Shown here: positions 21,696 through 28,897 of the stretch, piece by piece
Layout: each line of letters opens with the position of its first letter
Position numbering within the stretch: position 1 is the stretch's first letter
Origin: Butyrivibrio sp.
Lineage (GTDB): Bacteria > Bacillota > Clostridia > Lachnospirales > Lachnospiraceae
Reading direction: 5' to 3'
Assembly (NCBI GenBank): GCA_024692165.1
Contig: JAILMY010000230.1
Coordinates: forward strand, 1-38,286
DNA length: 38,286 nt
Notes under the pieces: model-generated
The model's input: only the letters and a program-made list of their open reading frames with translations
Database searches by the model: none
What the model was told of the DNA's origin: nothing
Program-made: the position numbers and the translations under genes

Positions 21696-22943
21696 TTACT
21701 GATAATCCTCGCCGTACTTATCCACAATTCCAAGAAGGATCTCTACAACCTTTCTCATTTCCTGAACAGAGGCATATTCATACTTACCGTGGTAATTGTA
21801 GCCACCTGTACAAAGGTTAGGACAAGGAAGTCCCTTATATGAAAGTGCTGCGCCGTCTGTACCACCGCGGATTGGAGAATCAATAGGTGTAATGCCCATC
21901 TCCTCCATAACCTTCTTGGCATTGTCCACAAGATGCATATGAGGACGAATCTTCTCGATCATGTTGTAGTACTGATCGCGAACGCTGACTTCCACAGTGC
22001 CTTCCCCGTATTTTTTGTTAAGGAACTCACCGGCATCAAGGAATAACTGCTTCTTCTGCTCAAAGAGCTTCTCATCGTGATCTCTGATTATGTATGATGC
22101 AAAAGCCTTTTCAGTTCCACCCTTAACCTCAGTAAGGTGGAAGAAGCCCTCTCTTTTCTCAGTGTACATAGGATTCATGAACACCGGTAAAAGAGCATGG
22201 AACTCATAGCAAAGAAGAGCTGCATTGATCATCTTGTTCTTGGCATCTCCCGGATGAACGCTTCTGCCGTTGACCTTAACGATGCCCTCTGCTGCATTGA
22301 AGTTCTCGTATTCAAGTTCTCCAAGCTTGCCGCCGTCTACTGTATAGGCATATTTGGCTCCAAACTTTTCAATGTCAAAAAAGGCTGTTCCTGCGCCAAT
22401 TTCTTCGTCTGGAGTAAATGCAATCTTGATGTCACCGTGTTTAATGTCAGGATTTGTTAAAAGAGTCTCAGCCATAGCCATGATCTCTGAAACCCCGGCC
22501 TTGTCATCAGCTCCAAGTAAAGTGGTTCCGTCTGTTACGATAAGGTCCTCTCCCTTATGATTTAAAAGCTCCGGGAAATCCTTAGGTGATAAAACAACAC
22601 TTCCATCTGCGGAAAGAGTAATGTCATCTCCGTCGTAGTTCTCCACGATTCTGGCCTTTACATCCTTGCCGCTCACTTCATCAGATGTGTCCATGTGAGA
22701 TACAAATCCTATGGCAGGCCTGTCCTTGCCATCATCAATGTTTGAAGGAATTGCTGCATATACATAGCAGTGCTCCTTGTCATAAGTCACATCAGATGCT
22801 CCGATAGCCAAAAGCTCCTCATAGAGCATTTTGGCAAGATTGTGCTGCTTCATGGTTGAAGGCGAGGTTCCTGTGGTGTCATCTGACTGGGTATCCACCT
22901 TCACATATCTTAAAAACTTTTCAATGCAATCTACCTTTGCCAT
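21696..22943 (-). CDS. pepT: Peptidase T (tripeptidase, M20 family)
   Basis: FVSHMDTSDE, LLGADDKAGVSEIMA, FTPDEEIGAGT, RGGTDGAALSYKGLPCPNLCTGGYNYHGKYEYA. Confidence 0.95.
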   Translation of the reverse strand: MAKVDCIEKFLRYVKVDTQSDDTTGTSPSTMKQHNLAKMLYEELLAIGASDVTYDKEHCYVYAAIPSNIDDGKDRPAIGFVSHMDTSDEVSGKDVKARIVENYDGDDITLSADGSVVLSPKDFPELLNHKGEDLIVTDGTTLLGADDKAGVSEIMAMAETLLTNPDIKHGDIKIAFTPDEEIGAGTAFFDIEKFGAKYAYTVDGGKLGELEYENFNAAEGIVKVNGRSVHPGDAKNKMINAALLCYEFHALLPVFMNPMYTEKREGFFHLTEVKGGTEKAFASYIIRDHDEKLFEQKKQLFLDAGEFLNKKYGEGTVEVSVRDQYYNMIEKIRPHMHLVDNAKKVMEEMGITPIDSPIRGGTDGAALSYKGLPCPNLCTGGYNYHGKYEYASVQEMRKVVEILLGIVDKYGEDYQ

Positions 22944-22981: not shown

Positions 22982-24988
22982 TCAGCTTTTCTTTGTGCTC
23001 TTTACGGCTTTGCGATTTATGCGCCTCTTTTTATAGTTCTCATCTACCTTGCTTATATATATGCGAACCGAGCGTTCCTTCTGGATCTGAAGATTTGCTT
23101 CACTGTTTTCCGATGCTGTAACGTCCTTTTCGGTATTCTTACCTGCCTGCGCGCCCTGGTCACCTTCTTCTGTATCAGAGAGTATAGTCCACTTAAGTCC
23201 CTCAGGGAGCTTTGGAAGAGCAAACTCAGATTTCTGCCAGTGCATGTTGTAGCACACATAGATGAAAGGCTTATCCTCACTCTTTTCATAAAGGCCGCAG
23301 TAAAGCATTCCCAGTACATGACTGTATCCCGAAAGATCAGGCCTCCAGGCTTCCTTGCCGTGGCAGGAAATATCCGGATAGCCGCAGGAAATATAATCCA
23401 TAAGCCTGAAGGGAGCCTTGCCATGTAGCATATTGTGGCTAAAGCGAAGTTTTGACAGGAACAATACATAGTCAAACAGTTCTCTGTTCTTCTCAAGAGC
23501 CTTCCAGTCAACCCATCCGGTCTCGTTGTCCTGACAGTAAGGGTTGTTATTGCCTCCCTGTGATGAGCCGAACTCATCTCCGCTAAATATCATGGGAACT
23601 CCCTGGGACAAAAACAGCATGGTGAGAATATTCTTCATCTGCTTCTGTCGCAGCTGTAATATATTATGCTTTCTGGTCCTGCCTTCAATTCCGCAGTTCC
23701 AGCTAAGATTGTTATCTGAGCCATCCTTATTGTTCTCGCCATTTTCCTCGTTGTGCTTGTGTTCATAAGCTACAAGGTCAGAAAGTCTAAAGCCCTCATA
23801 GTCACATACATAGTTAATGAAGGCATTTTCTTTTGAATTGGCGATCATAGCCTTAAAGAAGTCGCTGACTGTATTGTCATCGCTCTTTAAAAATCTCCTG
23901 GAAGCGTACAGGAAGTTATTGTTATAAATCGCAAGGTTTCTGTTTTGTACTTCTCTGCCGCCATAGAGATCATAGGTATCAAACCAGTCATACCAGATCT
24001 TTACATCAGTAAAAAGAGGCTCCTTAACAATCTGCCTCACCGGAATTCTGGCACCCTTTAAGTGGAATCCATCCACATGATAGGTGCATCTCCAGTAGCG
24101 AAGGGCATCTATGATAATGCTCTCATTCTCGTTTTCCTCGAAAAAGAACTGCATAACTACTTCAAGTCCATTTTCATGGAGGGTCTTAACTAAGTTCTTA
24201 AACTCATCCTCAGCATTTGCAGCATCTTCACAATACGCTGTCCTTGGGGCAAAATAATAACCCTTTTTATAGCCCCAGAAATTGAGTCTTTTTATGATAT
24301 CATTTTTGCCAAGCAGACTTCCGTCCCTTGAATAAATTACAGCCTCCTCTTTGCCCTTAGCAGCGGATGAAATAGGATTTTCCACCTCATTCATCTCGTA
24401 GCATGGCATCAGCTCTAAGGTAGTAACTCCAAGCTCCTTAAGATAGGGAATCTTCTCAATAATACCGTTAAAGGTTCCTCTTCTTGATGTACTGACACCG
24501 CTGGAAGAACTTTTTGTAAAGCCCCTTACGTGAAGCAGGTAGATAAAGCTGTTCTCATATCCTATGCAGGGGGAGACATCTTTTCCCCAGTCAAAACAGT
24601 TATCCAGGTTTCCTCTTACAGACTTGTTATCCAGCTTGGCTCTTATATCGCAGTCAGGAACATCCTTGCCAAATTCCTCCAGTCCCAGAACATGCTTGGC
24701 ATAAGGGTCGCAGAAATACTCGTCGTCCTTAAAATAGTTGTAGGATACATATTTGTCGATATCCTCAATATCACGAACTCTTGCAGAATAGATCGCACCT
24801 CTTTTAAGGGATTTGGTAAATGTAATCGTCAGCGGCTCAAGATTCTCATCCGATGCTGCGGGATAAAGCGTAACTCCGCATTTCTTACCGTCTTCAAACA
24901 CAGCCCTTACTACAAGGCTCTTATCATAGTCAATATAGCACCCAAGTGGATAGGGCTTTTCGTTACAAATCTTATATTTCCCCAGCAT
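22982..24988 (-). CDS. GH13 glycogen-debranching/isoamylase-like protein with degenerate catalytic motifs
   Basis: Retains GlgX-like blocks KHNEENGENNKDGSDNNLSWNCGIEG and LSQGVPMIFSGDEFGSSQGGNNNPYCQDNETGWVDW; catalytic regions I-IV are altered. Confidence 0.8.
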   Translation of the reverse strand: MLGKYKICNEKPYPLGCYIDYDKSLVVRAVFEDGKKCGVTLYPAASDENLEPLTITFTKSLKRGAIYSARVRDIEDIDKYVSYNYFKDDEYFCDPYAKHVLGLEEFGKDVPDCDIRAKLDNKSVRGNLDNCFDWGKDVSPCIGYENSFIYLLHVRGFTKSSSSGVSTSRRGTFNGIIEKIPYLKELGVTTLELMPCYEMNEVENPISSAAKGKEEAVIYSRDGSLLGKNDIIKRLNFWGYKKGYYFAPRTAYCEDAANAEDEFKNLVKTLHENGLEVVMQFFFEENENESIIIDALRYWRCTYHVDGFHLKGARIPVRQIVKEPLFTDVKIWYDWFDTYDLYGGREVQNRNLAIYNNNFLYASRRFLKSDDNTVSDFFKAMIANSKENAFINYVCDYEGFRLSDLVAYEHKHNEENGENNKDGSDNNLSWNCGIEGRTRKHNILQLRQKQMKNILTMLFLSQGVPMIFSGDEFGSSQGGNNNPYCQDNETGWVDWKALEKNRELFDYVLFLSKLRFSHNMLHGKAPFRLMDYISCGYPDISCHGKEAWRPDLSGYSHVLGMLYCGLYEKSEDKPFIYVCYNMHWQKSEFALPKLPEGLKWTILSDTEEGDQGAQAGKNTEKDVTASENSEANLQIQKERSVRIYISKVDENYKKRRINRKAVKSTKKS

Positions 24989-25100
24989 TGTCTCTCCCGA
25001 TTGGTAATCTGATTCCCCAATTAGCCTTTACTAACAGATGTAAATCTACATACGCCGTAATATTTTACCACAAATTCGCTTTTATTCACAGTAATTATGT

Positions 25101-25153: not shown

Positions 25154-25519
25154 ATGGAATTTTCCAAGATTGCAACTGATATGAACACAAGAATTGAGAA
25201 CGACGAGCAGATGACCGTTGACGTGGAGCTGGAAAGCGGCGAAACCATTACCTGTGCCATCATCATCGTTTTAACTGTTAATTCAAAGGACTACATTGTT
25301 CTTCTTCCGCTGGATAAGAACGGTCAGAACAATGATGGAAACGTATGGTTCTATGAATTCATCTATCACGGCGAGGATGGAGAACCTGAACTTGGCTATA
25401 TCAGCGATGATGCTGAATACGAGGCTGTTTCTGAGGCCTTCAACCTCTACCTTGACGATGTTGAATTTGATGAACTTGTTGAGCTTCCCGAGGAGGGCCT
25501 TGACGGAGAAGAAGAATAA
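25154..25519 (+). CDS. DUF1292 family acidic protein
   Basis: ETITCAIIIVLTVNSKDYIVLLPLD...FYEF with acidic C-terminus; RBS AGGAG. Confidence 0.8.
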   Translation: MEFSKIATDMNTRIENDEQMTVDVELESGETITCAIIIVLTVNSKDYIVLLPLDKNGQNNDGNVWFYEFIYHGEDGEPELGYISDDAEYEAVSEAFNLYLDDVEFDELVELPEEGLDGEEE

Positions 25520-27396
25520 TCTTTTTCTTCCCACAAATCCCTTAGTGGTCTTAAGAATCTTGACGGAAGCATTGGGTTTTCACTGCTTCCTGTTAAATAA
25601 CTCATCACGAGCGCTGTTTTTGCCCTGGTCATTCCGACGTAGAGCATACGGCGCTCTTCTTCTATCTGCTCCTTTGTTATTGAACTTCTGCTTGGTATAA
25701 TTCCTTCATTGAGATTAGGGAGCCACACTATGTCAAACTCAAGCCCCTTTGATCCATGCATTGTCATGAGCTTGACACAGTCCTTTTTATTGCGCACGCC
25801 CTTATTTTTCACTTCCTGTCCGCTTTCATCTATAGCTTTTTTTATAAAACCAATGAGTTCCTTGTTTGATTCAAACATGACAGTTTTTTCCGAAAGTTCA
25901 TTAAGGGCATCTATTTCTCCAGGATATAGCGTATCGATTCCGAGCTCATTTCTAAGAAACCTCACAGAAAGGGTCGGTCGCATCTTTGCTATGATTCCAA
26001 CCTGACGAAAAAATTTATCAATAACCTTCTGCATCTTGCTGTTACCCCTGTAGTAGCTTTTTACCTTACATTCGCTGACAACCTCCTGCTGTGCGCATTC
26101 TCTGGAGATATACCTAAGTGGCTTATTCATGATCCGGAAAAAGAGCTCCCGGCTTTTCTCAACACATGCAAAGGATAGATAGTCTATGCACAGCTTTACT
26201 GCAGGGCTTTCATAAAACTCTTTTGCATTACCCTCAAGATTTGTGGGTATTCCTTCTGCTTTAAGAACACTGGCCAGGGAATATGCCTCCTGATTTGTCC
26301 TGAAGATGAAAGCTATCCTGTCATAGGAATCCTTATGGGACTTAAGGAAGCTTACAATAGCACTGCTTTGATGCTTCTTTGACGTATACCTCCTGGGGAT
26401 AAGGAAGCCTTTGCCGTTTGAGTTATCTGCTCTTAGAACCTTTTTGTATCTTACAGTGTTTTCCTCAATAAGCCTCATGGCTGTATCCAAAATAACCTTC
26501 CCGCATCTGTAATTGGTATCAAGACTGATTATCTTTGGGAAAAAATCCCTATATTCCTCAGGAAACTGCTGCATGATTCCGGGATCTGATCCTCTAAAGC
26601 CATAGATCGACTGATCATCATCCCCCACTACAAACAAATTTTTGCTTTCACAGATCTGATCTATTATCCTGTACTGCAAAAGATTTATGTCCTGATATTC
26701 ATCGATGAGGATATATCTGAACTTTTTCTGCCATAATCCAAGGGTATCAGTATCCTTTTTAAACAGTTCAAAGCAGTTTAACAGCATATCATCAAAATCA
26801 ATGAGATTAAACTCAGAAAGGCTCTTATTATATTCTTCATAGATTCTTTTAAAATGTAATTTTCCCGGTCCGTTTAAGCTGTTATTTGAAGGACTTTCCA
26901 TTGTATTCTTAATTCTGGAAATTTCAGAAATAACATCTCCCAGAATTTCCAGAACATCCTCTGTTTCAGAGTTTTTAATTACGCCACTTGCTTTCAGGCG
27001 CAGAATAATATCCCTAAGCAGCTTATACTTAGTGTTCTCGCTAATGATCTGTAATTTAGTGTGTGGATTTGATCTTCGAATTATCTGATAAAAGACAGAA
27101 TGAAATGTGCCAAAACTAACTTCCGGATAAGAACTATCCGTGATCTTCATAAATCTTTGCTGCATCTCGATGGCTGCAGCCTTCGTAAAGGTAATGACTA
27201 ATATGGATGATGGATCGACATTCTCCCGGGTAATAAGATGCCTTAGTCTTTCCACTATAACAAAGGTTTTGCCGCTCCCGGGCCCTGCCAAAACCATTGC
27301 AGGGCCATCTTTATGGAGTATTGCCTCCATCTGAGCGGCATTTCCTTTTACGTCACTACTCTTACCTGTAGTGATATTATTTCTCAAGTAACTCAA
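25447..27396 (-). CDS. UvrD/PcrA-type ATP-dependent DNA helicase (SF1A)
   Basis: [68 protein letters not shown]. Confidence 0.93.
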
Positions 27397-28855
27397 TTCC
27401 TTTTTTAATTCTCTTAATTGTCTCTTCCTTGCCGATAACCTCCATAAGCTCAGTAGCTCCGCATGGAGTCATCTCTTTGCCGGAAACAGCAATTCTTACA
27501 GGCCAGAGAACATATCCGTTCTTGTACTCATGCTCCTTGATATAGTCAGAAAGCATAGCATAAAGAGCATCGTTAGTGTAATCCTCGTGGGCTTCAAGAA
27601 GTGGAAGCACCTCTTTAAGTACTGTCAGTGATGTCTCCTCATTGGTCTTCATCTTCTTGTGAGAATAGATTGCTGTATCATACTCAGGAAGCTCGTTGAA
27701 GAAATCTACCATTCCCTTGATGTCAGGGAAAATCTCGATACGAGTCTTAACCATGTTAGAAATCTTCTTAAGCTTGTCATCTGACTTAAGTGCAGGATTT
27801 GTGATAGCCTCCTCAAGATAAGGCTTTGCCATCTCGAAGAACTTGTCCTCATCCATAGCCTTAAGGTACTCACCGTTCATCCACTTAAGCTTTGTGTAGT
27901 CAAACACAGCAGGTGACTTATTGATACGATGGTAATCAAACTTTCTGATAAGGTCCTCAAGGCTCATGATCTCGTTATTGTCATCAGGTGACCAGCCAAG
28001 AAGAGCAACAAAGTTAACTACCGCCTCAGTAAGGAATCCCTGCTCGATAAGGTCCTCAAAGGATGAGTGTCCGCTTCTCTTAGAAAGCTTGTGGTGATCC
28101 TCATCAGTGATAAGTGGGCAGTGGATATACTTAGGAATCTCCCATCCGAAGGCATCATAAAGTCTGTTGTACTTCGGTGAAGAAGAAATGTACTCGTTAC
28201 CTCTTACAACATGAGTGATACCCATGAGATGATCATCAACAACGTTGGCAAAATTATATGTTGGGAAGCCGTCTGACTTAATAAGGATCATATCATCCAG
28301 CTCTTTGTTCTCAACAGTTACATCTCCGTAAAGCTCGTCGTGGAAGGTTGTTGTTCCCTCTGTAGGGTTATTCTGTCTGATAACAAAAGGCTTGCCCTCA
28401 GCCAGATTCTTCTCAACTTCCTCCTTGGAAAGATGGAGGCAGTGCTTATCATAGAAGCTGATCTCCTTCTTGCCGCCGTTTCCATCATCAACTTCCTGTA
28501 CAAGAGTAGCAAGTCTCTCCTGGTCACAGAAACAGTAGTAAGCCTCTCCTTTGTCAATCAGCTCTTTTGCATACTTCATGTATATGCCGGCCTTCTGTCT
28601 CTCACTCTGAACGTAAGGTCCGCATCCCTTGTCCTTATCAGGTCCCTCGTCATGAATAAGTCCTGTTTTCTCAAGGGTTCTATAGATGATCTCAGTAGCG
28701 CCTTCTACATAGCGCTCCTGATCTGTATCCTCAATTCTAAGAAGAAAATCTCCGCCCTCATGTTTTGCGATCAGAAACTCATAAAGAGCTGTACGCAAAT
28801 TTCCAACATGCATGCGTCCTGTAGGGCTTGGCGCATATCTTGTACGAATTTTCAT
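27377..28855 (-). CDS. gltX: Glutamyl-tRNA synthetase
   Basis: [33 protein letters not shown] at 28855 follows AGGAGATGAGACT. Confidence 0.95.
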
Positions 28856-28897
28856 AGTCTCATCTCCTAAAACCATTTAATAATTAGACAAATGTTG

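Follow-up and report, generated by a model that had tools for sequence, protein, structure and literature searches.

The gene at positions 22982–24988 (minus strand) of the window, by which we mean the whole 38,286-nucleotide Butyrivibrio stretch analysed here, encodes a full-length relative of GlgX and isoamylase that lacks the nucleophile Asp and is almost certainly not a canonical GH13 hydrolase. Its fold, the loss of catalytic residues throughout its lineage and strong purifying selection identify it, with its homologues (together referred to as pseudo-GlgX), as a noncatalytic paralogue within GH13_11. What has been taken for an enzyme is probably a specialised helper that binds glycogen.

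The ORF starts with ATG, encodes 668 amino acids and is preceded on the same strand by a Shine-Dalgarno-like GGGAGAG (24992–24998), read from the sequence, 3 nt 5' of the start codon; its limits and the motifs quoted in a preliminary description of this DNA proved exact. The best NCBIfam model is GlgX (TIGR02100), with 291.5 bits, below the cut-off of 640.9, while Pfam covers the alpha-amylase domain (PF00128, 46.5 bits) only in part, at residues 156–282. Among PDB sequences the best match is plant ISA1, followed by GlgX, TreX and ISA2. The AlphaFold2 (AF2) model (pLDDT 85, pTM 0.87) has its nearest Foldseek neighbours in ISA1-ISA2, ISA1 and GlgX structures (E down to 3e-45, prob 1.00), and it predicts a GH13-type (beta/alpha)8 barrel within a GH13_11-like fold, flanked by an N-terminal and a C-terminal beta domain.

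The preliminary description had reported changes in all four catalytic regions, and a profile-profile alignment (hhalign) of pseudo-GlgX with 15 active GlgX proteins (605 columns, 32% identity, E = 9e-156) brings the four regions into register exactly where they had been placed. In region I (GLEVVMQFFFEEN, residues 274–286; 24131–24169, minus strand) the GlgX motif LDVVFNH is replaced by MQFFFEE, with Q280 for Asp, E284 for Asn and E285 for His, and the family carries the signature [M/L]QF[Y/F]F instead. In region II (VDGFHLKGA, residues 305–313; 24050–24076, minus strand) DGFRFD reads DGFHLK, with H309 for Arg and K311 for the nucleophile Asp. Region III (VKIWYDWFD, residues 329–337; 23978–24004, minus strand) has YDWFD for AEAWD, so that the acid/base Glu corresponds to D334, a position variable in the family, and Trp to F336, while HDGF of region IV (INYVCDYEGFR, residues 391–401; 23786–23818, minus strand) reads YEGF, with Y397 for His and E398 for Asp. 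When the GH13 catalytic set is defined as the Asp nucleophile of region II, the Glu acid/base of region III and the Asp stabiliser of region IV, the window protein, with K311, D334 and E398 at these positions, lacks it, and no member has all three.

The homologues share this loss, as the preliminary description had proposed to verify. The nucleophile Asp is missing from all 120 homologues, which have Met (37), Lys (34), Asn (17), Leu (11) or other residues at this position, and is present in 17/17 GlgX controls. Glu occupies the acid/base position in 32/120 homologues and Asp the stabiliser position in 28/120, both being found together in five; no homologue keeps more than two of six pocket residues, whereas all six are kept by each of the 17 controls. 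The blocks described earlier as well preserved are mostly 95–100% conserved in the family.

A feature missed by the preliminary description is the shortened spacing between the regions: regions I and II are 27 residues apart in 81/81 pseudo-GlgX members versus 71–73 in GlgX, and regions II and III 25 residues apart versus 37–39. Two active-site loops, of approximately 45 and 13 residues, are therefore absent from all members measured, being deleted to the same length in each of them. The I-to-II spacing and the hhalign gap place the site of the larger deletion, that of the beta3-alpha3 loop (~45 residues in GlgX), at 24122–24133 (minus strand). The absence of the nucleophile in 120/120 homologues, the loss of both loops and strong purifying selection strongly support the suggestion of a pseudoenzyme with regard to the canonical GH13 mechanism.

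The homologues are up to 81% identical to the window protein in Butyrivibrio and approximately 38–45% identical in many other Lachnospiraceae. In a tree of 32 pseudo-GlgX and 17 GlgX sequences the two groups lie on opposite sides of one branch with SH-aLRT support of 100, demonstrating a single pseudo-GlgX clade; both this grouping and the score against TIGR02100 place the window protein outside the GlgX equivalog. The ratio omega is 0.04–0.08 in three closely related pairs, synonymous sites being saturated in the remaining pairs, those involving the window gene among them. This strong purifying selection shows that pseudo-GlgX is a maintained protein rather than a dying gene. One sub-branch (L146–L150, L152–L155, L159 and L162) has a shorter version of approximately 562–587 amino acids, with a gene for a Peripla_BP_4 periplasmic sugar-binding protein often lying before it and a TraX-family gene coming after it at several loci.

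Most other residues that contact sugars in GlgX are retained. In the complex of Streptomyces venezuelae GlgX with acarbose, the −1 sugar is contacted by Trp222, Tyr224, His271, Asp342, Glu378, Trp380 and His449, and the sugars further along the chain by Arg212, Glu470, Asn534 and Tyr536 (PMC9530166). We mapped these contacts by phmmer alignment to the chain 7u39_A, whose numbering equals that of PMC9530166 plus three. The motif WGY (24269–24277, minus strand) corresponds to Trp222 and Tyr224: W238 is kept in 120/120 members, and the position of Y240 is Tyr in 107 and Phe in 13 of them. The conserved beta7 loop (residues 407–436; 23681–23770, minus strand) holds KHNEENGENNKDGSDNNLSWNCGIEG and E418, the equivalent of Glu470, which is Glu in all 120 pseudo-GlgX proteins but only in 9/17 GlgX controls and is thus more conserved in pseudo-GlgX. 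In the conserved beta8 loop NNNPYCQDN (residues 480–488; 23525–23551, minus strand) N482 and Y484 correspond to Asn534 and Tyr536 and are kept in 120/120 and 119/120 homologues, respectively; the loop with the equivalent of Arg212 is variable. The beta7 and beta8 loops have low confidence in the AF2 model. The possibility that this reflects partner-dependent folding was rejected: in an AF2 control of active GlgX, made with a shallower alignment built without E. coli GlgX, the beta7 loop is also of low confidence, and so the low confidence is uninformative either way.

It is reasonably likely, mainly because the hydrolytic residues are lost while most other sugar contacts are kept, that pseudo-GlgX still binds alpha-glucan. 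The carbohydrate binding suggested in the preliminary description thereby gains indirect support from the retention of acarbose contacts outside subsite −1. With the machinery of this subsite gone and the covering loop deleted, the cleft would form an open, nonhydrolytic groove for alpha-1,4/1,6-glucan chains, and its ligands could be glycogen, limit dextrin or maltodextrin. Bound to glycogen, pseudo-GlgX might then, more speculatively, act as an accessory protein (in targeting, scaffolding or sensing) for turnover enzymes not limited to GlgX; being almost always present, GlgP and GlgA are candidates. We consider the chances about even that pseudo-GlgX is a noncatalytic, alpha-glucan-binding GlgX paralogue with an accessory role in glycogen metabolism not tied to GlgX, and the role of a regulator or scaffold of glycogen metabolism put forward earlier is plausible.

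The genomic neighbourhood could suggest a role of another kind. No linkage to glycogen genes was seen in the genomic context of pseudo-GlgX at 120 loci, and a glycogen gene cluster was also rejected for loci outside the usual context, where the neighbours are unrelated (NRDD, CLC channel, tRNA ligase, decarboxylases). In the window the gene is flanked upstream by a divergent gene for a DUF1292 protein (25154–25519, plus strand; PF06949), a gene for a UvrD/PcrA-like SF1 helicase of 649 amino acids (25447–27396, minus strand) and the glutamate-tRNA ligase gene gltX (27377–28876, minus strand; TIGR00464), members of the same clusters being found at 76, 77 and 72 of the 120 loci, respectively. Downstream lies the peptidase T gene pepT (21696–22943, minus strand), usual there in Butyrivibrio; in many genera other than this one, a DUF5662 gene is located directly 3' of pseudo-GlgX (63/120 loci). 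It encodes a protein of approximately 190 amino acids (e.g., L074:8058-8630), and its frequent 4-nt overlap with the pseudo-GlgX stop codon suggests cotranscription. For DUF5662 we found no PDB relative and, in the open-access literature, no paper. A function that has nothing to do with glycogen, exercised for instance together with the DUF5662 protein or the linked gltX, helicase and DUF1292 genes, would be in line with these conserved neighbours and the overlap. However, DUF5662 does not track pseudo-GlgX significantly (136/159 vs 30/41 genera, p = 0.07), which led us to reject a functional pairing of the two, the gltX/helicase/DUF1292/DUF5662 neighbourhood has been lost in many genera, and the retained sugar-contact residues would be unexpected for a function outside carbohydrate metabolism, making this explanation unlikely. 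As a separate observation, the helicase (25447–27396, minus strand) falls far short of the thresholds for PcrA, Rep and UvrD, with 354 bits against 911, and its position between gltX and pseudo-GlgX is conserved across the Lachnospiraceae; it probably represents a separate SF1 helicase family.

The distribution of the family was determined in 200 genera of Lachnospiraceae, each represented by one genome, with pseudo-GlgX called by the family profile at E <= 1e-100. It was found in approximately 159 of the 200 genera, that is, in about four of every five, and since a true GlgX can barely reach this threshold (G505, 6e-102), one or two of the weakest calls may be misassigned, G095 being the most doubtful. 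No pseudo-GlgX was found outside Lachnospiraceae among 250 genomes sampled from the phylum, two Butyrivibrio genomes being its only carriers, and in 24 other families of the order there was no pseudo-GlgX and at most true GlgX, as judged by the catalytic residues. Fixation of pseudo-GlgX early in the history of Lachnospiraceae is the best explanation. GlgA (193/200), GlgC (193/200) and GlgP (196/200) are near-universal in these genera, and because they are so widespread, their co-occurrence with pseudo-GlgX says little. Among debranching enzymes, true GlgX is present in 60, type I pullulanase in 50 and GDE in 39 of the 200 genera, and at the thresholds used 72 genera have pseudo-GlgX but none of these three types.

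One conceivable role in these 72 genera is that pseudo-GlgX stands in for GlgX in turnover, governing the handling of branches either by passing branched ends on to a different enzyme or via some unrecognised chemistry, which we regard as quite unlikely. A rival explanation, that the protein is still an enzyme, with relocated residues or a different alpha-glucan reaction, and serves as the debrancher where GlgX, type I pullulanase and GDE are missing, could draw on the same genera, nearly all of which have GlgA and GlgP, and on residues whose conservation is new in this family (Q280/F281, H309, D531, D539 and W548). However, among the 120 homologues there is no conserved Asp/Glu pair at the triad positions that could replace the lost residues, the −1 positions vary freely among members, all members measured lack the 45-residue active-site loop, and the debrancher gap is defined by GlgX, type I pullulanase and GDE, whereas alpha-1,6-glucosidases also include other GH13/GH31 enzymes. 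Continued enzymatic activity is therefore very doubtful.

Equally doubtful is that pseudo-GlgX is an obligate noncatalytic subunit of GlgX, directly analogous to ISA2 in the ISA1-ISA2 heteromer. Plant ISA2 likewise lacks catalytic residues, and its binding to ISA1 makes the latter more active (PMC12510319, PMC12892837); 58 of the 60 GlgX-bearing genera also have pseudo-GlgX, and in two genomes (L170, G193:C30; and G186:C6) the two genes lie only approximately 2–4 kb apart. The genome that contains the window encodes an intact GlgX (G000:C77) in a 735-aa frame with all catalytic residues present, answering the earlier suggestion to look for a separate active copy. Yet GlgX is absent from 101 of the 159 pseudo-GlgX-positive genera, which makes an obligate subunit unlikely as the general role and led us to reject it as such. 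Moreover, GlgX comes and goes on the tree while pseudo-GlgX stays: a tree built from the main GlgP of 100 genera implies 22 changes in GlgX and 11 in pseudo-GlgX, and of 14 independent pairs whose members differ in GlgX, approximately 13 show no difference in pseudo-GlgX. The pseudo-GlgX profile also fits ISA1 and GlgX better than ISA2.

We also considered an association with a second glycogen phosphorylase. At least two such genes are found in 113/159 pseudo-GlgX-positive and in 7/41 negative genera (raw p = 4e-10), but the association is not significant on independent pairs, although those pairs that do differ tend in this direction; a single clade accounts for half of the negatives sampled, and hence the link is unsupported once relatedness is handled.

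Finally, a decaying pseudogene or a sequencing or assembly artefact, to which nothing but the missing catalytic residues would point, is refuted for practical purposes by intact ORFs over many genera and assemblies, the omega values of 0.04–0.08, identical losses and deletions in 120 homologues, and the family's own invariant positions.

Plants are known to have noncatalytic relatives of debranching enzymes, and debate continues over what ISA2 does there; pseudo-GlgX is a bacterial, family-wide variant of this kind. Kept across a dominant gut and rumen family even without the active enzyme, it offers a simple system for probing the function of a dead glycogen cleft. Furthermore, counts of GlgX in Lachnospiraceae and annotations as "glycogen debranching enzyme" are likely inflated by this protein without an active site, which bears on metabolic models of glycogen storage in the gut.

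Compared with GlgX and TreX, the bacterial and archaeal debranching enzymes of GH13_11 (TIGR02100), pseudo-GlgX shares the three-domain fold and keeps the beta7 and beta8 loops, but has lost the set of nucleophile, acid/base and stabiliser along with two active-site loops, and falls well short of the model's score. Control by c-di-GMP, as in S. venezuelae GlgX, was among the readings rejected; PMC9530166 reports the pocket residues to be lacking in the other debranching enzymes compared there. In the open-access literature searched, we came across no account of a noncatalytic GlgX from bacteria. In Butyrivibrio hungatei MB2003, a GH13 protein of 648 amino acids without CBM48, "glgX2", is listed beside a 726-aa glgX1 with CBM48 (PMC5716241), and glgX2 is among the CAZyme genes listed as having increased expression on pectin in monoculture (log2 3.27; PMC6344614). 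It matches pseudo-GlgX in size, genus, GH13 annotation and the missing CBM48 call, but is annotated as an active debranching enzyme. Judging from length and annotation alone, glgX2 probably belongs to the pseudo-GlgX family; if so, the family is expressed and is carried in the literature as an enzyme.

Plant ISA1 is the best PDB match of pseudo-GlgX both by sequence and by fold, but it is catalytic and keeps the residues that pseudo-GlgX has lost. ISA2, in turn, is a noncatalytic GH13_11 paralogue whose nucleophile was lost in the green-plant ancestor (PMC12510319), and it attaches to ISA1, raising ISA1 activity (PMC12892837). With pseudo-GlgX it shares the subfamily, the ancient disappearance of the nucleophile together with most of the catalytic residues, and long retention under selection (PMC12510319). 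The two nevertheless differ: the pseudo-GlgX profile scores ISA1 and GlgX at 386 and 361 bits, respectively, and ISA2 at 217 bits; the extra N-terminal beta-sandwich of ISA2 is missing, the 668 residues leaving no room for it, since query residue 12 aligns near ISA2 residue 150; and ISA2 works with ISA1, whereas pseudo-GlgX often occurs without any catalytic GH13_11 partner. Given the better match to ISA1 and GlgX, the lack of the extra domain and the persistence without a catalytic partner, pseudo-GlgX is not an ISA2 orthologue; in kind, ISA2 is the nearest known thing to it.
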